The notes under the pieces: model-generated
The model's input: the letters and a program-made list of their open reading frames with translations, nothing else
Told to the model about the DNA's origin: nothing
The model's database searches: none
Position numbers and translations under genes: made by a program
IMG/VR virus record: IMGVR_UViG_3300025849_000025
Span: 16,100 to 80,099 of that record
Origin: a virus
Reading direction: 5' to 3' (one strand)
DNA length: 64,000 nucleotides
Part shown: in pieces, positions 53,926-63,687 of the stretch
Numbering within the stretch: position 1 is the stretch's first letter
Layout of the letters: each line of letters starts with the position of its first letter

Positions 53926-54006
53926 ATGGATAAGAATAAGACTATAGGAGACTTGTTTATAGAGTATTTGAGATATATCTCTACTGTAGATAAGGTTAAA
54001 GAATGA
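53926..54006 (+). CDS. Small ORF (26 aa) coupled to ABC-acetyltransferase gene
   Basis: ATG at 53926, 26 codons ('MDKNKTIGDLFIEYLRY'), TGA overlapping the next ATG (ATGA). May be a leader peptide for translational coupling rather than a functional protein. Confidence 0.35.
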   Translation: MDKNKTIGDLFIEYLRYISTVDKVKE

Positions 54007-55088
54007 AAGTTACTGTTGATAATGATCAGATAACTTCTGAAGTTAGTCGCATTATGGACTATGAGTTTGATGGTACTACTACGTTCTATCCTCATGAGTT
54101 TAGTCCTATTGATCGTGAGACAACTCTTAAGGAGTTTGGTATTGGTTTGATTGTAGGTCCTTCTGGTTCTGGTAAGACTACTCTTCTTAAAGAGTTCGGT
54201 TCTGAAGTAGAACCAGAGTGGGATTCTAATAAGGCCATTGCTTCTCATTTCAAAGACATTGATGATGTTCAAGATCGTTTGGGTGCTGTTGGTTTTAATA
54301 GTATTCCTTCTTGGTTACGTCCTTATCATGTTTTGTCTAATGGAGAACAGTTTCGTGCTAGATTAGCTCGACAGTTAGATAGTAATATTGTTGTTGATGA
54401 GTTTACATCTGTTATTGATAGAGATGTTGCTAAGAGTTGTTCTAATGCAATCAGTCGTTACGTTAAAAGAAACAACTTAAAGAACATTGTCTTCTCATCC
54501 TGTCATTATGACATCATTGAGTGGTTGCAACCTGATTGGGTGTTTGATACTCATACAGGTAGGCTAACCACAAGGGGGTATCAAAGGCCAGACATTGTTT
54601 TGGAAATCTTACCTTGTACCAGAGACATCTGGACGCTCTTCAGCGACCACCACTATCTCGACGGAAACATTCACTCAGGTGCATCATGTTGGATTGCAGT
54701 CTGGAACGACAGACTTGTCGGATTTCTTTCTAGCTTAAGCATGCCTTCTGGCAGTTTGAAGAATGCTTGGCGAGGTCATCGTACCGTCGTTTTGCCAGAG
54801 TTTCAAGGTTTGGGGATTGGTGCTAGAATGACAGAAGCTATGGGAGAATTACACTTAATAGAAGGTAAAAGATATTTTACAAAAACGGCTCACCCTAGAT
54901 TGGGAGAGTTTCGGAATAATTCTGATAAATGGCGTGGTACATCTAAGAATGGTATATCCAGACAGGATTATAAGACAGGATCAATGGCAAACCCAGATAA
55001 ACCTAGTTATGGTGGATTTGCTGATAGTCATTTCAAACACGCAGATAGAGTGTGTTACTCACACGAATATATAGGAGATGAAAAATGA
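54003..55088 (+). CDS. ABC-type ATPase fused to GNAT acetyltransferase
   Basis: 361 residues. N-terminal ABC ATPase: Walker A 'GPSGSGKTT' near 52, signature 'LSNGEQFRAR' near 112, Walker B 'NIVVDEF' near 131, H-loop 'SSCHYD'. From about 200 a GNAT domain: 'WIAVWNDRLVGFLS' and the acetyl-CoA loop 'FQGLGIGARM' near 268. No membrane partner is encoded nearby, so it is not a transporter. The layout matches the orphan class of ABC ATPases fused to acetyltransferases (COG2401-like). Acyl transfer to DNA, RNA or protein driven by ATP is possible. The ATPase half favours codons ending in T far more than the other half. Confidence 0.78.
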   Translation: MKVTVDNDQITSEVSRIMDYEFDGTTTFYPHEFSPIDRETTLKEFGIGLIVGPSGSGKTTLLKEFGSEVEPEWDSNKAIASHFKDIDDVQDRLGAVGFNSIPSWLRPYHVLSNGEQFRARLARQLDSNIVVDEFTSVIDRDVAKSCSNAISRYVKRNNLKNIVFSSCHYDIIEWLQPDWVFDTHTGRLTTRGYQRPDIVLEILPCTRDIWTLFSDHHYLDGNIHSGASCWIAVWNDRLVGFLSSLSMPSGSLKNAWRGHRTVVLPEFQGLGIGARMTEAMGELHLIEGKRYFTKTAHPRLGEFRNNSDKWRGTSKNGISRQDYKTGSMANPDKPSYGGFADSHFKHADRVCYSHEYIGDEK

Positions 55089-55606: not shown

Positions 55607-55613
55607 GCTAGTG

Positions 55614-55639
55614 TAGAGGGGCTTGACCGTCCCTCTACT
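55614..55639 (+). terminator. Possible terminator hairpin before hem cassette
   Basis: 8-bp stem GTAGAGGG / CCCTCTAC with a 10-base loop, just after the acidic-protein gene. No clean T run follows, so it may be an mRNA stabiliser or a factor-dependent site instead. Confidence 0.4.
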
Positions 55640-55650
55640 TGCTTCAAAAG

Positions 55651-55658
55651 CATAAATA
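55651..55658 (+). promoter_or_regulatory. Late promoter-like CATAAATA before hemE
   Basis: One mismatch from TATAAATA, plus strand, 41 bases before the hemE ATG. The spacing matches the other late boxes in the window. Confidence 0.35.
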
Positions 55659-55691: not shown

Positions 55692-56675
55692 ATGAATACT
55701 AAATTTACAAACGCTATAAACCGCATCGAACAGTCGTGTCCACCTATTTGGATGATGCGTCAAGCTGGTAGATACCAGAGTTCTTATATGGAACTCAAAG
55801 AAAAATATAACTTCATGCAAATGTGTAAACTACCGCAAATAGCGGCTAGGGTTGCCATGATGCCTATCGATGAATTTGATTTTGATGTCGCTATCTTGTT
55901 CAGTGACATTCTTTGGCATGTTGAAGGTTTGGGTCTGCCATTGACCTTTGATCCTAGTCCAAAGTTTGAATTCCATTTATCTGAGGAAAATTACAAAAAT
56001 CACATGTGCATTGAGACAGCTATGGAACATATTAGCTTTCAAAAGACTGCATTAGAAGTTACAAGAGATAAGTTGCCCATCAGCAAAAGTTTGATTGGAT
56101 TTGTTGGCGGTCCTTGGAGCGTACTCAATTATGCGTTGGGTGAAAATAAAGCATCAGCCGAATTCAAGACAATGTATCTTAATGAAGTCGTTATCCCTCT
56201 TATGGCTAGAAGCATCAGAGCGCAGAAGTTAGCGGGTGCTGAAATAGTTATGATCTTTGACAGTGGTTTGCATAATATGACTAAAGTGTATTACGATAAC
56301 TATTACCTTCCAATGATGGAGCAATTAGCATCAATCGGAAAGGTTGGTTATTACGCACGTGATTTGCCTAATGGTTCTTTACCTAAAGTTAAGAAAATGG
56401 AATGGGCTGGTATTGGTATTGACTCTACCCAAGATTTGCCAAAGACCTTAGAAACATATACTAATGGGTTTGTTCAAGGCAACTTCGATGAGAAATACAT
56501 GTTGTTAGAGACCAAACTATTTAAGTATGAATTGGATAAATGGCTTGATACCTTGGATGGTGTTGACACCACTGGTTGGGTATGTGGATTGGGTCATGGT
56601 ATCCATAAAACCACTCCAACAGATCATGTAGAACATTTTATTAGTAGTGTGAGAAATAAATTTGATGGCATTTGA
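55692..56675 (+). CDS. hemE: Uroporphyrinogen decarboxylase HemE
   Basis: 327 residues; bacterial HemE has about 350. 'PPIWMMRQAGRYQSSY' is the family signature with the substrate-binding Arg pair, 'DVAILFSDIL' holds the essential Asp, 'FVGGPWS' the second signature, and 'GLGHGIHKTTP' the C-terminal motif. It removes four carboxyls from uroporphyrinogen III to give coproporphyrinogen III. First gene of a three-gene heme-pathway operon; overlaps hemF by 11 bases. The key residues are intact, so it is probably active. Confidence 0.92.
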   Translation: MNTKFTNAINRIEQSCPPIWMMRQAGRYQSSYMELKEKYNFMQMCKLPQIAARVAMMPIDEFDFDVAILFSDILWHVEGLGLPLTFDPSPKFEFHLSEENYKNHMCIETAMEHISFQKTALEVTRDKLPISKSLIGFVGGPWSVLNYALGENKASAEFKTMYLNEVVIPLMARSIRAQKLAGAEIVMIFDSGLHNMTKVYYDNYYLPMMEQLASIGKVGYYARDLPNGSLPKVKKMEWAGIGIDSTQDLPKTLETYTNGFVQGNFDEKYMLLETKLFKYELDKWLDTLDGVDTTGWVCGLGHGIHKTTPTDHVEHFISSVRNKFDGI

Positions 56676-57468
56676 TGATTATGCGGCTTGGTTTAAAACC
56701 TTACAAAATGACATCTGTGATACCATTGAGGATATAGAATTTCCTTATGCAATAGGAATGGAAAGTCATTCGGGTTCAACTAAAGAAGGTTGGACTCAAA
56801 TGCACAGAACAATTCATAATGGTGGCATCGTTGAAAAGGGTACTGTTAATTTCAGTAAGATCGTGTCTGAGTTTGACCCCAATTTTGCCAAGGAAATTCC
56901 TGGTACTGAGGAACACAATAGATATAGTGCAACTGGTATAAGCGTTGTGCTACACTTCAAAAACCCACACGTTCCAGCAATGCATTTCAACACACGATAT
57001 TTACAGACAAGCACAAAAGAGTGGTTTGGTGGTGGCATGGATATTACGCCGTGTTTAGCATTCGACACACCGTCTTACCATAAACAACTGGAAGATGTGT
57101 GTAATAAGCATGACCCAGAATACTTTCCTAAGTTCAAAAAAGCATGTGATGAATACTTCTTTATACCACATCGTAACGAGATGCGTGGCGTTGGTGGAAT
57201 ATTTTTCGAGTATCACGATCCCAAGGATATGAGTTTTGCCTTTGTTAAAGATGTTGGTCAAACCTTCAATTCCTTAATCAAGAGTATCACTAATGATCTG
57301 TCTGACCTTTCTTATACTGAGGAAGACAGGGAAACATTAGAAGTCAAGCGTGGACGCTATGTAGAGTTCAATCTTTTGTATGATAGAGGAACGCGGTTTG
57401 GTTTCAAAACAGGTGGTAATATGGATGCAATCTTAATGACCCTACCCCCAACAGTGAGGTGGAAATGA
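56665..57468 (+). CDS. hemF: Oxygen-dependent coproporphyrinogen III oxidase HemF
   Basis: 267 residues; bacterial HemF has about 300. 'NPHVPAMHFNTRY', 'WFGGGMDITP', 'RNEMRGVGGIFFEY' and 'GRYVEFNLLYDRGTRFGFKTGG' are the family signatures, with the catalytic His and Asp. It converts coproporphyrinogen III to protoporphyrinogen IX using oxygen, so the host must be aerobic. The ATG lies inside the end of hemE, and its stop overlaps the hemC start (TGATG). N-terminus is slightly short but the core is complete. Confidence 0.93.
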   Translation: MAFDDYAAWFKTLQNDICDTIEDIEFPYAIGMESHSGSTKEGWTQMHRTIHNGGIVEKGTVNFSKIVSEFDPNFAKEIPGTEEHNRYSATGISVVLHFKNPHVPAMHFNTRYLQTSTKEWFGGGMDITPCLAFDTPSYHKQLEDVCNKHDPEYFPKFKKACDEYFFIPHRNEMRGVGGIFFEYHDPKDMSFAFVKDVGQTFNSLIKSITNDLSDLSYTEEDRETLEVKRGRYVEFNLLYDRGTRFGFKTGGNMDAILMTLPPTVRWK

Positions 57469-58205
57469 TGAGAGTTGGCGTAAGAGGTAGTGACCTTGCT
57501 TTGGCATATGCAAATAGAGCGTGTGATGAATTGTCCTGTGAAACTGAGATAGTTGTTATTAAAACAATGGGTGATCTTAACCCTAATGTGCCAATACATG
57601 AAATGGGCGGCAAGGGTGTTTTTTGTAGCGCAATAGAAACTGCATTAATCAACAACGAGATTGATGTAGCAGTACATAGCTTAAAAGACATGCCTGGTGA
57701 TATTCAACACCCTGATCTTGTTATTGCATCTTATCTAAAGCGCAATGATCCACATGACGTATTGATAGGTAGTGTGTTTGAAGGTTGTACAATAGGTACG
57801 AGTAGTCCAAGACGCAGAGAACAAATTCAAGAATTATATGGTCATTTGAATGTCGAGATAAAGCATATTCGAGGAAACATAGACACACGTTTACAGAAAC
57901 TCGACGATAAAGAGTACGATGCAATTATTTTAGCAAAAGCTGGATTAGATGCGCTTGATATATCTAGGATATGCAAACCATTAGATATCATACCAGCAGT
58001 TGGTCAAGGAACTACTGTATTGCAATGCAGAAAAGATGATGTCGAAACCATAGAACTTGTTTCCAAAACAAATGATGATTTGACAATGAGACAATCTTTC
58101 TTAGAGAGATCGTTGCTCAAAGGTATGATGGGTGATTGTAGTACATCAGTTGCCGCCTATGCACATGGAGATTCGCCAATTAGAATGGACGTTGTTTATT
58201 ATTGA
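57465..58205 (+). CDS. hemC: Hydroxymethylbilane synthase HemC (porphobilinogen deaminase), short C-terminus
   Basis: 246 residues; bacterial HemC has about 310. 'RGSDLALAYA', 'KGVFCSAIETALI', 'DVAVHSLKDMP' (catalytic Asp), 'TSSPRRREQI', 'IRGNIDTRLQKL' and 'PAVGQGTTVLQ' are present, as is the cofactor Cys in 'GDCSTSVAAYA'. It links four porphobilinogens into hydroxymethylbilane. The protein ends about 20 residues after the Cys, so domain 3 is largely missing. It lies out of pathway order at the end of the operon; hemD is not present. Confidence 0.9.
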   Translation: MMRVGVRGSDLALAYANRACDELSCETEIVVIKTMGDLNPNVPIHEMGGKGVFCSAIETALINNEIDVAVHSLKDMPGDIQHPDLVIASYLKRNDPHDVLIGSVFEGCTIGTSSPRRREQIQELYGHLNVEIKHIRGNIDTRLQKLDDKEYDAIILAKAGLDALDISRICKPLDIIPAVGQGTTVLQCRKDDVETIELVSKTNDDLTMRQSFLERSLLKGMMGDCSTSVAAYAHGDSPIRMDVVYY

Positions 58206-58281: not shown

Positions 58282-58929
58282 ATGAGCGTTACGGATTACA
58301 CCGTATCACCAATAACTATACAAGAAGCTACACCGTTTGTTGTTGATTGGCATTACTCCAAGAATACGAATGGCTTGGCTACTCGTTTCTGTTTCGGTCT
58401 TTTCGATGGAACTGAAATGATTGGTGTTATGATATATGCGTATCTAGGCATGGCAAGTGTTTGGAAGAAGTATGGGGAAGTTGAAACAGACGTTGTTGAA
58501 CTAAGACGATTGTGCTGTATTGATGACACCCCTAAGAACACGGAGAGTTACTTCATAGCTCAGACTATTAATTGGTTGAGGCAGAATACAGATTGTAAAG
58601 TTGTTGTCAGTTATGCTGACAGTATGCAAGGGCATGTAGGCACTATATACTATGCATCAAACTTTTACTATTTGGGTATGACTGCTAAAGGTAGATCAAT
58701 AAAGATTAAGGGTAGTGATCGTCTGTATCACGAAAAGACAATACGGACTTATTACACACCTAAGAATGGAGAGAGGCGTCTCAAACCATACGCACAAAAA
58801 ATTAAGGAACAGCTAGAGAACGGTGAAGCAGAATACGTTCATAGTAAAGGCAAACACATATTCGTATATCCTCTCAATAAGAAGGAAAGACGGAAGTATA
58901 AAATGAAAGCAACGAATGTCAAATCTTGA
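58282..58929 (+). CDS. Mom-like acyltransferase (putative DNA adenine modification)
   Basis: 215 residues. Resembles phage Mu Mom: 'WHYSKN', 'FCFGLFDGTEMIGVMIY', 'VVELRRLCCIDDTPKNTESYFIAQ', 'VVVSYADSMQGHVGTIYYASNFYYLG'. In Mu, Mom is a GNAT-fold enzyme that converts adenine in DNA to a carbamoylmethyl form that restriction enzymes cannot cut. The basic C-terminus would suit DNA binding. Its gene overlaps an NPPY methyltransferase gene. DNA modification of this phage is inferred, not shown. Confidence 0.78.
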   Translation: MSVTDYTVSPITIQEATPFVVDWHYSKNTNGLATRFCFGLFDGTEMIGVMIYAYLGMASVWKKYGEVETDVVELRRLCCIDDTPKNTESYFIAQTINWLRQNTDCKVVVSYADSMQGHVGTIYYASNFYYLGMTAKGRSIKIKGSDRLYHEKTIRTYYTPKNGERRLKPYAQKIKEQLENGEAEYVHSKGKHIFVYPLNKKERRKYKMKATNVKS

Positions 58930-59434
58930 AATGATTAAGCGAACTAGTCGTAATGCTGAGAGTGATGAGTGCTACACACCGTCTGATCAAATCATTCCTT
59001 TGTTGGACTATCTCGACAAAGATAGAACCTATTACGAAGCAACAAGCGGTATTTCTTCAAACATCTTAGAAGGAATGCATAAACATGGCTACAAGATGAT
59101 TGGCAGTGAGGGCAGAGACTTCTTTGATTGTACTGCCGATGATGTTTATGATGGTGTTATAACTAATCCACCATACAGTCTTAAAGACAAGTTCATCGAA
59201 CACTGCTATTCTCTAAAGAAGCCATTTGCTTTGTTTTTGCCTGTCGCATCGTTTCAAGGTGGTAAACGTGGACAGATGTTCATGGACTATGGGATGTCTA
59301 CACTAGTGTATAATAACAGAGTAGACTTCACAGGTGGTGGCGCACCACACTTTGGCAATGCTTGGTTTATGTGGGGCATCCTACCACCTAACACAATTTA
59401 TTGGGCTAATAACCCAAAGATGAACAGAAAGTAG
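58916..59434 (+). CDS. NPPY-type adenine methyltransferase-like protein
   Basis: 172 residues. 'YTPSDQIIPLLDYL' at the start, 'YYEATSG' in place of motif I, and 'VITNPPYSLKDKFIEHC' with the catalytic NPPY. This is the layout of small N6-adenine methyltransferases of phages. No separate target-recognition domain is visible. Overlaps the Mom-like gene by 14 bases. It may make N6-methyladenine or have lost part of the SAM site. Confidence 0.75.
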   Translation: MSNLEMIKRTSRNAESDECYTPSDQIIPLLDYLDKDRTYYEATSGISSNILEGMHKHGYKMIGSEGRDFFDCTADDVYDGVITNPPYSLKDKFIEHCYSLKKPFALFLPVASFQGGKRGQMFMDYGMSTLVYNNRVDFTGGGAPHFGNAWFMWGILPPNTIYWANNPKMNRK

Positions 59435-59441
59435 TTATCAA

Positions 59442-59687
59442 ATGAGCTATAGGATCGAATCTGCCAGTAAGGAAGAATGGGCTGAACGAGCAATCAACGT
59501 CGAGAAGAAGTTAGCTGTCTTAGAAAATAGTATTAAAGAACTGTTTAGTCTGCTTGACGCTACTGAAGAAACTGACGAAGGTCGTGAGTTTCATCCAGTA
59601 AGAATCGTCTGTTGTCGTAATGATATGATTGAAAAACTTGAGAACGTCTTGGCTACATTAAAAAGCAATCGCAGAGATGATGTTTAG
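59442..59687 (+). CDS. Small coiled-coil protein
   Basis: 81 residues, with heptad-like 'AINVEKKLAVLENSIKELFSLL' and a second helix 'NDMIEKLENVLATLKSN'. Similar small proteins occur in marine T4-like phages. Its stop overlaps the convergent Fe-S carrier gene by four bases. Confidence 0.6.
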   Translation: MSYRIESASKEEWAERAINVEKKLAVLENSIKELFSLLDATEETDEGREFHPVRIVCCRNDMIEKLENVLATLKSNRRDDV

Positions 59688-59968
59688 ATAGCAAAACTTT
59701 CACCGCAACCACATGAAGCTGTTGCGTTGGGATTGACTACCTTGAGGTAACTTCCTCCCAGTTCTTCAACGTAGTCAATCGTACATCCAAAGATGAACAT
59801 CTCTGCCATGGGATCAAGCCACAGATTTTCAACAGTGGGTTCCTTATCGGTAACACCCCACTCATACTGAAAACCAGAACAACCCCCACCCTTTACATTG
59901 AGTGATACGTTTGGTTTACCTGCTTTTGCTAAGTATGCTTTTGCACTATCTGTGACTTGAATATTCAT
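59684..59968 (-). CDS. A-type iron-sulfur carrier (IscA/ErpA/HesB family)
   Basis: 94 residues. The three conserved Cys are present: 'GGGCSGFQYEW' and 'CGCGESF' at the C-terminus. Such proteins hand Fe-S clusters to apo-enzymes. Members are known from marine T4-like phages. Lies at the start of the right-hand minus-strand block. Could help keep host Fe-S enzymes active during infection. Confidence 0.88.
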   Translation of the reverse strand: MNIQVTDSAKAYLAKAGKPNVSLNVKGGGCSGFQYEWGVTDKEPTVENLWLDPMAEMFIFGCTIDYVEELGGSYLKVVNPNATASCGCGESFAI

Positions 59969-60595: not shown

Positions 60596-60899
60596 ACTTC
60601 TTTTTGCCACCAAGCTTCTTTGGCTCTACCGCCTCTAGTCGTTTTTCTAGTTCGTCTATCTTCTTTGTGATCTTTGGATACTTCTTACGCCAAGCATCTT
60701 CTGGTTGTTCCAACCAAGTCCAACCCCAACGTTCTACAAGAAAGTCGATTGCGTTATCTACCTTTGCGTAACCCCAAAGACCTATACGTGTTGTGCTTAT
60801 GTACGCAACAAAGATCGCGCCCAAGACTGACCCACCTAAAGCCGTGTATATCCATAGACGATCACTCGCCATTTGTTGTATCATATCAATCATCATCAT
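60594..60899 (-). CDS. Membrane-anchored marine phage protein
   Basis: 101 residues. One membrane segment ('IYTALGGSVLGAIFVAYI'), then 'AIDFLVERWGWTWLEQPEDAWRKKYP' and a Lys-rich end, a pattern I recall as conserved in marine T4-like phages. Starts inside the end of the lipase gene with an AAGGAG ribosome site. Function unknown. Confidence 0.7.
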   Translation of the reverse strand: MMMIDMIQQMASDRLWIYTALGGSVLGAIFVAYISTTRIGLWGYAKVDNAIDFLVERWGWTWLEQPEDAWRKKYPKITKKIDELEKRLEAVEPKKLGGKKK

Positions 60900-61623
60900 T
60901 CTCCTTGGTGTACTTGCAATAATGGTTCATGCCATGATCATATGCACCGTCAAATGGCATTCCTTTTTTCAAGGCTCTCCATCTGCCACGCCACTTATCT
61001 TTTACTCGTTGCCACTTTGTGCAGGCTCTAATATTTCCGTAGTAATTGATGTATCGTGGGGTGGAGTTGTGTCTGTACCCCAACAAAGCAAATGGTACAC
61101 AAGTAACCATATCGTTATTATTGACATGACGATAATGAGGCGTTGTAATAGAGTTGACAAATTTCCTAGTCCCTGTTCTTGGTGATCCATACGTAAAGAG
61201 GGCATCTACTTTGCCCTGTAGTCTGCTACATGCGATTGTCGCCATAGCACCACCCAACGAGTGACCACAGATGAATAATTTTTTATCTTCAATCTTAGAG
61301 GAATTTGTGAAAGCAGAAACTTGATCCCACACCTTATTTACTTCCTCTTGAAACCCATTATGTACAAGTCCAGAACCGTTTTGCGCTTTGTCTGGTAAAG
61401 CGTTTAGGTCTGCTTTAATATCAGAGAACTCACCTGGTTCTGTCCCCCTAAAGCACAAAACATTTTCTTCTTTATTGCCTATGATGTGCAACTGAGCGCC
61501 ATCATGTTCAATAAACTTATGTCTAGTATAACCTAGTTTCTTATATTGCTTTTTAGCTTCTGCACCATCAAGGTATGCTATCTGGGCGCATTGAGCCATA
61601 ACTGCACATTTATTTATATACAT
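60886..61623 (-). CDS. Class 3 lipase / alpha-beta hydrolase
   Basis: 245 residues. 'CFRGTEPGEF' (oxyanion), 'CGHSLGGAMA' (nucleophile Ser), 'NNDMVTCVP' (Asp) and 'HGMNHYC' (His) give a complete lipase_3 triad. It would cleave ester lipids. No signal peptide, so it acts in the cytoplasm or at the membrane, or is part of the virion. A TATAAATA box at 61611-61618 lies in its first codons; if that promoter is used, translation would start at the Met at 61599. It is 12 bases after the cyclase gene. Confidence 0.85.
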   Translation of the reverse strand: MYINKCAVMAQCAQIAYLDGAEAKKQYKKLGYTRHKFIEHDGAQLHIIGNKEENVLCFRGTEPGEFSDIKADLNALPDKAQNGSGLVHNGFQEEVNKVWDQVSAFTNSSKIEDKKLFICGHSLGGAMATIACSRLQGKVDALFTYGSPRTGTRKFVNSITTPHYRHVNNNDMVTCVPFALLGYRHNSTPRYINYYGNIRACTKWQRVKDKWRGRWRALKKGMPFDGAYDHGMNHYCKYTKENDDD

Positions 61624-61635
61624 TTCTTATTATCC

Positions 61636-63687
61636 CTATTTAGTTGTTGCTCTAAAAATACCGTCCCAATCAGATGGTAATTTTTGCGTTGACATATAAT
61701 TACAGCGTTCGATCCAGATGTCATAGTAATCATCCATCTTGCCGTTAAAGCATCCTTTTAGATTTTCGCATATAGTAATAGCTTCTCCAAAATTTTGTTC
61801 TCTGTAGCACTTATGCATGAAATGGTGGCTTAGTTGGTTTGAACTATTATGAGCTTTATCTGCGCCACTAAGATCAAGTGCTGTGTATATATCTAACCCC
61901 ACATTCTTACCCTTCACAGCAAGATCGTCTAGTTTTAGATAAAAGAAATCATTTTTAGTTGCTTGATATGTCGAAGGACCTACGATCAGAACAACACCAT
62001 AACTCTTACAAGCACTCTCCAATCTAGCGGCTGTGCTGACTGCATCCCCTAGAATATCATAGCTGTGTCTTGCGGTTGATCCCATCTCACCAATATACCC
62101 AAGCCCTGTGTTGATCCCTGCGCCCATAGCAACAGGCGGTTTGCCAGCAGCAACAAGCTTAGCGCTAAACTCATCAACCGCTCTAAGCATACGAAGACAT
62201 GTTTTCATACCATTTTTAGGATGCTCTGGATCATTGATAGGTGCGTTGTGGATGTGCATAGAAGCATCACCAATATACTTAATGATCATTCCGTTCGCAT
62301 CTAAAACTGGCTTAGTAATCGCATCCATGTATCCGTTCATTACATCAGTAAGACCTTTTACGTCATCACCAAAGCTTTCGCCTAATGGTGTAAAGCCACG
62401 TAGATCACTGAATACGATAGATACTTCTTTCTTCATACCTTCTTTGACAAGAGAAGGATTTTCTTGTAACAGGCGTACTACTTCTGGGGAAGCGTAGCCT
62501 GCGAATTGTTTTTTGATTGCTTGCTTCTGTAGAAACTCATCTACAAACCTGAGTACATACTGTACAAGACCAACGAGCAAGAGCATAGCAGAAATGGTAA
62601 TACCATCAATAAGAACATTCGAAGTAGTAAAGACATAAATGGAACCCCCTATAAGTCCAGTGATTGTCATGACAAAAACACCAAGACCTATAAAAGTCCA
62701 ATATGATAATAATATTATGATAAGACCACTCACAACTAATGCGGCTAACTCGCCCCATGCTTTCGCATCTGCATTTCGTGTGATGTTACTCTCATTAAAA
62801 ACTGTGCCTAGCATTGAGGCTTGTATTTCGTGTGGGAATATAGAACCCATAGCTGTGGCGACTGGTTGTGTAATACCTGATGCAGTAGTTCCTACGAATA
62901 CAACAGCACCACCAAAGTCTTCTGGCATATCCATTAGACTTACTGAGTTGTATCCTTGTGACCAGTCTATCCAAACTTCGCCAGATTCGTTGGTTGGTAT
63001 TATGCCGAATTGTGGTATTCTTAGCTTATCTACTCCTAATGGAGATAACTTGATTTGAAAACTTGGATCACCAGAAAGAACTCTTAAAACTTCCATCGTA
63101 ACGTTTGGGTATAAATTACCACCATTCTCAAAAACTAATGGTGCGCGTCTAGTAACACCATCTATTTCTGGGAAGGTGTTGATGATTCCTGACCCCACTG
63201 CATTAAACTCAATGACATCGACGTTAGCTGTAATGCCAGGTACGCTTGGAATAACATACATATAATCGCTATTAATAATAGCGGCTCCCGGATTAATTGG
63301 TTCATTTTTGTTCTCCTCAGTTCCTAGCATATTTACTATGACAGGGTAGTTTTGCAAGGTTGTTGCAAGTAGTTCATCTTCCCCTGATCTATCTTCTTCG
63401 CTCATAAGAACATTAAACACCACAAGCCCAGCGCCTCTGTTGTATAAGTCCTCTATTATATTTGCGTAATTGCCACGTGGAAAAGGCCACTGACCATATT
63501 CAGTCAAGGCTTCTTCGTCTATGTTGACAGTGTATATGTTGTTTGGGACGGTTTCTTGATTAACGATCAACTGATCAAAGTAGCGTAATCTAAGACTTTC
63601 TATGATGGATGGGTTGATGGTGTGTAGCCAAACGAACACCCCCAATAACGTGATAGCCCATATAGGAGAAAATAAAATCTTTCTCAT
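61636..63687 (-). CDS. CHASE2-domain class III nucleotidyl cyclase
   Basis: 683 residues. One N-terminal membrane helix, a CHASE2-type extracytoplasmic sensor region (about 30-300), three membrane helices (about 310-380), then a cyclase domain. Cyclase features: 'FSDLRGFT' near 425 (first metal Asp), 'KYIGDASM' near 470 (Lys and second Asp), 'SYDILGDAVSTAARLE' near 545. The Asp in 'YDILG' suggests ATP as substrate. The usual VN in 'GDAVNxAARL' is VS, so the transition-state Asn is replaced by Ser while the Arg is kept. It could make cAMP and alter host signalling, or be a weak enzyme. Confidence 0.85.
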   Translation of the reverse strand: MRKILFSPIWAITLLGVFVWLHTINPSIIESLRLRYFDQLIVNQETVPNNIYTVNIDEEALTEYGQWPFPRGNYANIIEDLYNRGAGLVVFNVLMSEEDRSGEDELLATTLQNYPVIVNMLGTEENKNEPINPGAAIINSDYMYVIPSVPGITANVDVIEFNAVGSGIINTFPEIDGVTRRAPLVFENGGNLYPNVTMEVLRVLSGDPSFQIKLSPLGVDKLRIPQFGIIPTNESGEVWIDWSQGYNSVSLMDMPEDFGGAVVFVGTTASGITQPVATAMGSIFPHEIQASMLGTVFNESNITRNADAKAWGELAALVVSGLIIILLSYWTFIGLGVFVMTITGLIGGSIYVFTTSNVLIDGITISAMLLLVGLVQYVLRFVDEFLQKQAIKKQFAGYASPEVVRLLQENPSLVKEGMKKEVSIVFSDLRGFTPLGESFGDDVKGLTDVMNGYMDAITKPVLDANGMIIKYIGDASMHIHNAPINDPEHPKNGMKTCLRMLRAVDEFSAKLVAAGKPPVAMGAGINTGLGYIGEMGSTARHSYDILGDAVSTAARLESACKSYGVVLIVGPSTYQATKNDFFYLKLDDLAVKGKNVGLDIYTALDLSGADKAHNSSNQLSHHFMHKCYREQNFGEAITICENLKGCFNGKMDDYYDIWIERCNYMSTQKLPSDWDGIFRATTK

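Follow-up and report, generated by a model that had tools for sequence, protein, structure and literature searches.

The locus described here raises the question of why a phage would encode three enzymes of mid-pathway heme synthesis, and where the tetrapyrroles that they yield would go. The window, which is the whole stretch of DNA that was analysed (64,000 nucleotides), comprises bases 16100-80099 of an 80,099-base IMG/VR virus record. The record encodes a T4-type DNA polymerase, clamp loader and topoisomerase II as well as baseplate and tail genes, and the virus is an uncultured, T4-like and probably marine phage of bacteria. For its DNA polymerase, the best matches in the phage collection reach about 43% identity at most, so that collection has no known near isolate. 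The cassette and the signals in front of it are as follows (window positions).

55613..55638, + strand: 10-bp hairpin of -17.9 kcal/mol (folding energy), between the upstream gene and CATAAATA
55651..55658, + strand: CATAAATA, a T4-type late-promoter-like motif, 33 nt 5' of hemE, kept in four sister phages
55692..56675, + strand: hemE, uroporphyrinogen decarboxylase, 327 aa, of a divergent viral clade (Pfam, NCBIfam, motifs, tree)
56665..57468, + strand: hemF, oxygen-dependent coproporphyrinogen III oxidase, 267 aa from the ATG (Pfam, NCBIfam)
57465..58205, + strand: hemC, hydroxymethylbilane synthase, 246 aa from the ATG (Pfam, NCBIfam, alignment, model)

The open reading frames occupy 55692-58205 exactly as the sequence-only reading had placed them, and its view that they form one operon agrees with their head-to-tail overlaps, which measure 11 nt between hemE and hemF and 4 nt (ATGA) between hemF and hemC. 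An alternative hemF start is possible at a TTG (56662), and the hemC frame opens at a GTG (57459) ahead of the ATG at 57465. The motif before hemE, with its ATAAATA, resembles the T4 late promoter. It lies 33 nt before hemE in the window and 34-41 nt before it in four sister contigs, which otherwise have different upstream sequences. ATAAATA precedes 8 of the 66 window genes of at least 100 aa, and rearrangements of the same letters all do so less often (mean 1.7); across the whole window it is not enriched (22 observed, 18 expected). A sigma-70 promoter scan of the cassette region stayed at chance level (21 hits, 20 expected). Late expression of the cassette is thus likely, as judged from the motif. 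The hairpin, which possibly marks the end of the upstream transcript, is absent from the relatives' sequences upstream of hemE.

The first reading credited all three genes with intact signatures. This stands for the family matches, which are full length and for HemC and HemF exceed the family cut-offs, but not for the third domain of HemC, about half of which is lacking. HemF matches nearly the whole Pfam model Coprogen_oxidas (PF01218, 278 bits) and passes the NCBIfam equivalog cut-off (NF003727, 309.2 against 297). HemE matches positions 3-345 of the 346 in Pfam URO-D (196 bits). It also matches NCBIfam TIGR01464 over its full length (2e-57, 194.6 bits, under the equivalog cut-off of 302.95), and no competing NCBIfam family appears among the matches listed. 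The HemE motifs MRQAGRY, AILFSDIL, GGPWSVLNY and GLGHGI are present; MRQAGRY, the catalytic Asp (AILFSDIL), the Tyr (GPW..Y) and the His (GHGI) align with structures 3cyv and 6w2o. Judged from these matches, the window HemE is a divergent member of its family. In PHROGs, no family was found for hemE, hemF or hemC. A C-terminal shortening of HemF relative to E. coli HemF was considered as a viral trait and rejected, as bacterial relatives, SAR11 included, are also short.

HemC matches nearly the whole of Pfam Porphobil_deam (PF01379, 204 bits) and scores above the TIGR00212 equivalog cut-off. The catalytic Asp (Asp75), the cofactor Cys (Cys225) and the conserved Arg positions are kept in 23 of 23 aligned viral HemC proteins. 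Cys225 aligns with the dipyrromethane-cofactor Cys of 4mlq, and the catalytic Asp is fixed by the Bacillus megaterium D82 mutants among the matched structures. A complete domain 3 is usual in cellular HemC. In the window protein, PF03900 matches only positions 5-36 of 74, and about 40 C-terminal residues of the domain, roughly half of it, are missing. The tail after the cofactor Cys measures 22-28 residues in 67 unique viral HemC sequences and 50 in 12, against 56-73 (mode 64) in cellular HemC. An AlphaFold model (pLDDT 86, falling to 55-68 towards the C-terminus) resembles solved hydroxymethylbilane synthases with TM scores of 0.76-0.86 (1pda: E 1e-22, TM 0.83). Since TIGR00212 still assigns the protein, it is filed as a short variant, and its shortness, which is fixed across the viral clade, is not damage. 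Because widely differing sequences keep the stop, this short HemC probably works, and its conservation offers a natural experiment on the parts of domain 3 that a hydroxymethylbilane synthase needs.

Three bacterial-type genes in a metagenomic contig could be an assembly chimera with host DNA, as the first reading itself had cautioned, or decaying host genes caught by chance. Viral contigs carrying hemE, hemF or hemC were collected through three single-protein scans and one alignment scan, with loci on the same contig merged. One or more of the three genes occur in at least 110 viral contigs, and all three in at least 36, from several phage backgrounds; hemC is the sole cassette gene in at least 56 of the at least 110, contigs being fragments. 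The hemE-hemF-hemC order of the window, for which a search of viral metagenomes had been proposed, recurs in four contigs (G001, G002, L013 and L014), two of which (G001 and G002) are also syntenic with the window on both flanks of the cassette. For each of the three genes, pairwise dN/dS comes to about 0.05-0.19 in pairs with unsaturated synonymous sites, and the cassette is under purifying selection. Beyond the bacterial ancestry of the genes, nothing was found that speaks for a chimera or for decay. Against both stand the recurrence of the trio and its phage neighbours in contigs assembled independently, the 99-100 support for the viral clades, dN/dS well under 1, and the fact that the 60% match to a SAR116 genome is itself a phage contig. 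The data refute this explanation, to which we give a negligible probability, and the trio is phage cargo. The "SAR116" HemC was accordingly rejected as a bacterial sequence: the contig L062, a phage contig with hemC, has been binned into the SAR116 genome MED880, and genome-based searches report it as bacterial.

The first reading also doubted that the trio is standard T4-like cargo, and rightly so, as no cultured phage in the phage collection carries it. The matches listed from that collection for hemC, hemE and hemF all resemble pieces of bacterial chromosome deposited as phage.

Trees, named earlier as a way to find the donor clade, give part of the answer. Viral HemC forms one clade (support 99) next to SAR11 (97), and viral HemF likewise (100, next to SAR11 at 92); viral HemE also forms one clade, on a long branch. 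The trees support SAR11 as the putative donor of HemC and HemF, but long branches and shared AT-richness weaken this assignment, and the donor is not firm.

Two contigs, L028 and L030, depart from this pattern. They share topoisomerase, gp46/47-type genes and, in L030, the DNA polymerase (80%) with the window phage. Their hemE is full length, scores 404 bits against the hemE model cut-off of 303, and is about 70-75% identical to copies from Rhodobacterales. These phages thus appear to have swapped the viral hemE for a Rhodobacterales gene and to have kept the viral hemF and hemC. As hemE was replaced by a bacterial copy, it seems that HemE activity is what is kept, and the swap appears to amount to a natural complementation. 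It also hints that these phages infect Rhodobacterales.

The nearest cellular sequence sampled to this hemE in the tree is that of Sulfitobacter guttiformis, where the gene sits in a photosynthesis gene cluster with ALA synthase and hemC. A phototrophic host could therefore be considered, that is, an aerobic anoxygenic phototroph such as a member of the Rhodobacterales, in which the cassette would feed protoporphyrin to bacteriochlorophyll as well as heme. The identity to Rhodobacterales copies, the Sulfitobacter cluster and the closeness of L030 to the window phage all fit such a host. The plasmid library, however, over-represents photosynthesis plasmids, so the link to photosynthesis is only a lead; viral HemC and HemF branch next to SAR11, a group without a bacteriochlorophyll cluster to our knowledge; and no bch or puf genes were noticed in the contigs read. 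We regard a phototrophic host as improbable.

The genomic placement differs from lineage to lineage. In the window lineage, the cassette is located in a tRNA/Mom region, and in L028/L030 hemE precedes a helicase gene, with hemF-hemC after it. The 110-kb contig G003, which has little else in common with the window phage, carries hemE-hemC after a gp46-type gene. In L027/L147, the gene immediately after an apparent nrdB, upstream of hemE-hemF-hemC, encodes ALA synthase. The G029-G037 group has the order hemF-hemC-hemE-hemB, and in G037 ALA synthase lies about 8 kb away. The cassette is modular.

Several other genes of these phages were recorded. Two genes 5' of hemE (54003-55088, + strand), a single protein joins an ABC-type ATPase part to a GNAT acetyltransferase part. 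Directly 3' of hemC lies a Mom-family DNA modification protein (58282-58929, + strand; Pfam Mom, 145 bits), followed by a gene that reads as a DNA methyltransferase and has no Pfam match (58916-59434). An IscA/ErpA-type iron-sulphur carrier is encoded near the cassette (59684-59968, - strand; Fe-S_biosyn, 45 bits). At 61636-63687 (- strand), adjoining a lipase-like gene (60886-61623), a fusion protein combines a transmembrane CHASE2 sensor with a class III adenylate/guanylate cyclase (Pfam matches of 131 and 58 bits). It is kept at 84-91% in G001, G002 and L014 and at 49% in the distant phage G037, and a membrane nucleotide cyclase encoded by a phage seems unusual. In two otherwise different heme-gene phages, G037 and G003 (L323, L324 and L329), long gene runs carry radical-SAM-like CxxxCxxC motifs. 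A membrane protein of 319 aa, weakly similar to PHO4, is found near heme genes (L344, 5272-6231; L327, 10258-11217) and is 81-99% identical between contigs of otherwise different phages.

Further genes of the pathway have been identified in the related contigs. 5-aminolevulinate synthase is encoded in at least 14 (TIGR01821, 579 bits against a cut-off of 339) and HemB (porphobilinogen synthase) in at least 12. HemJ is found in at least two, G001 and G002, which are the nearest relatives of the window phage (PF03653, 166 bits; TIGR00701, 124 bits, just below the cut-off of 138). The heme oxygenase HemO (PF01126) occurs in at least eight and bilin reductase (PF05996) in at least seven. In G002, hemJ, hemO and bilin reductase cluster within 5 kb, at a distance of about 35 kb past the cassette; G001 has hemJ and hemO and ends inside the latter, and G008 has HemO and bilin reductase. 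Wherever hemO is complete, a bilin reductase gene adjoins it or is near, in every such record. The window record contains neither HemJ, HemO nor bilin reductase, and as it stops about 6 kb beyond the cassette, this absence is uninformative. Together, the viral contigs cover eight of the ten steps from glycine to bilin. The fullest contig, G037, has seven of the eight pathway genes, and all eight occur in no single contig seen. The viral HemB (L052, 1501-2352; L047, 12670-13518) starts at position 31 of the family model and is without most of the N-terminal arm, which in cellular HemB serves oligomer assembly.

According to the first reading, hemB and hemD are absent and must come from the host. 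Neither was found in the window record, which is a fragment, and for hemD host supply still holds, but hemB is carried by one subgroup of the related phages. HemD and ferrochelatase gave no match in 38 records, HemD being a divergent family that could be missed, which suggests that the host must supply both.

These findings bear on the role of the cassette. The reading that we favour, and consider probable, is that it is a viral auxiliary metabolic module feeding heme, at least partly to bilin. A T4-type late promoter would drive the hemE-hemF-hemC unit, and during infection the phage copies of HemC, HemE and HemF would be added to the tetrapyrrole pathway of the host. Phage HemC would convert porphobilinogen to hydroxymethylbilane, host HemD would act next, and phage HemE would turn uroporphyrinogen III into coproporphyrinogen III, which phage HemF would convert to protoporphyrinogen IX. 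The extra heme would pass, probably in part, to phage heme oxygenase and a ferredoxin-dependent bilin reductase, yielding bilin, so that the virus would take over host pigment chemistry while multiplying. HemE and HemF act after the branch point to siroheme and B12, so the predicted flux would be committed to protoheme. HemF accepts isomer III only, and host HemD would therefore be needed between phage HemC and HemE. Of this reading, gene identity, conservation, selection, co-occurrence and the hemE replacement are observed; enzyme activity, late timing, flux direction and the end product are predicted.

A different end product, an intermediate rather than heme, could be coproporphyrin III as a metal carrier or type I porphyrins. 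It would suit the absence of HemD and ferrochelatase from the 38 records, as hydroxymethylbilane gives the type I isomer on ring closure when HemD is lacking. On that isomer, however, HemF would be useless, the HemJ, heme oxygenase and bilin reductase of relatives point onward to heme, and host HemD and HemH are expected wherever the host makes heme. This possibility is very improbable.

The first reading proposed a boost of protoporphyrinogen for host respiration or to limit toxic intermediates. The enzymes do look real, but that account is incomplete, as the relatives show a pathway distributed over contigs that leads to bilin. The main rival to the module reading keeps its respiratory half: the cassette would only top up heme for respiratory cytochromes and heme enzymes of the host, and bilin would be unrelated. 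Such a role has been proposed for viral 5-aminolevulinate synthase (PMC11480375). Many contigs with hemC, hemE or hemF lack hemO, as does the window record, but records without hemO are mostly short fragments. Moreover, every record with a complete hemO has bilin reductase adjoining or near, and both modules are present in the contigs most closely related to the window. A purely respiratory role thus appears rather unlikely. Because the pathway of the relatives runs from 5-aminolevulinate synthase to heme oxygenase and bilin reductase, supplying bilin is no less likely as a purpose; the many contigs with hemC alone indicate that the link to bilin is not universal.

A bolder form of the bilin module can be put forward tentatively. 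These uncultured phages may encode nearly the whole of a route of their own that leads from glycine and succinyl-CoA to bilin, with shortened enzymes (ALA synthase, HemB, HemC, HemE, HemF, HemJ, heme oxygenase and bilin reductase), leaving HemD and ferrochelatase to the host. If true, the phages would encode a pathway of unusual length with a pigment as its end product, assembled differently in each lineage by module exchange.

Parts of this pathway have been described before. Viral 5-aminolevulinate synthase, heme oxygenase and PcyA/X were reported by Wegner et al. 2024 (PMC11480375), also from aquatic phages, and the same alaS, hemO and bilin reductase families occur here on contigs with hemC, hemE and hemF. 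The main text of that study does not mention hemB, hemC, hemF, hemJ, coproporphyrinogen or protoporphyrinogen, and has uroporphyrinogen only in one place, a pathway legend. It leaves the middle steps undescribed, whereas the window and its relatives encode such steps. For a 'Deep ecotype' pelagimyophage, Zaragoza-Solas et al. 2020 (PMC7029224) name coproporphyrinogen oxidase and porphobilinogen deaminase in one sentence, along with GMP reductase and formate dehydrogenase. Several contigs here resemble it in having GMP-reductase-like and curli-type genes near hemO (judged by eye), but the main text of that paper reports neither uroporphyrinogen decarboxylase nor a cassette, and neither a truncated HemC nor a connection with alaS and hemO. 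Pelagibacter phage Mosig EXVC030M (MT647606), an isolated T4-like pelagiphage in which bilin reductase adjoins heme oxygenase, provides the best cultured-phage match to the bilin reductase (34%), but it is not among the matches listed for hemC, hemE, hemF, hemB or alaS. Cyanophages with pcyA and heme oxygenase likewise make bilin from heme, and their pcyA matches the bilin reductase; they depend on host heme, with no hemC, hemE or hemF match among those listed from the collection. Pelagiphage ferrochelatases (PMC9599517) represent another heme-pathway step in marine phages, but these are podoviruses, and ferrochelatase was not found in the 38 records.

In the open-access literature searched, no paper was found that joins phage uroporphyrinogen decarboxylase with auxiliary metabolic genes, and an earlier report elsewhere is possible. 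What appears to be new is the hemE-hemF-hemC cassette, its distribution across phage lineages and its connection with either end of the pathway, together with HemB and HemJ in viruses, the short HemC and the replacement of hemE.

Heme oxygenase and bilin reductase in phages of non-phototrophic hosts have been called enigmatic (PMC11480375). The presence of upstream heme-synthesis enzymes in the same phages suggests that the substrate for bilin is made to order, and with defined genes the question of what phage heme oxygenase and bilin reductase are for becomes testable.
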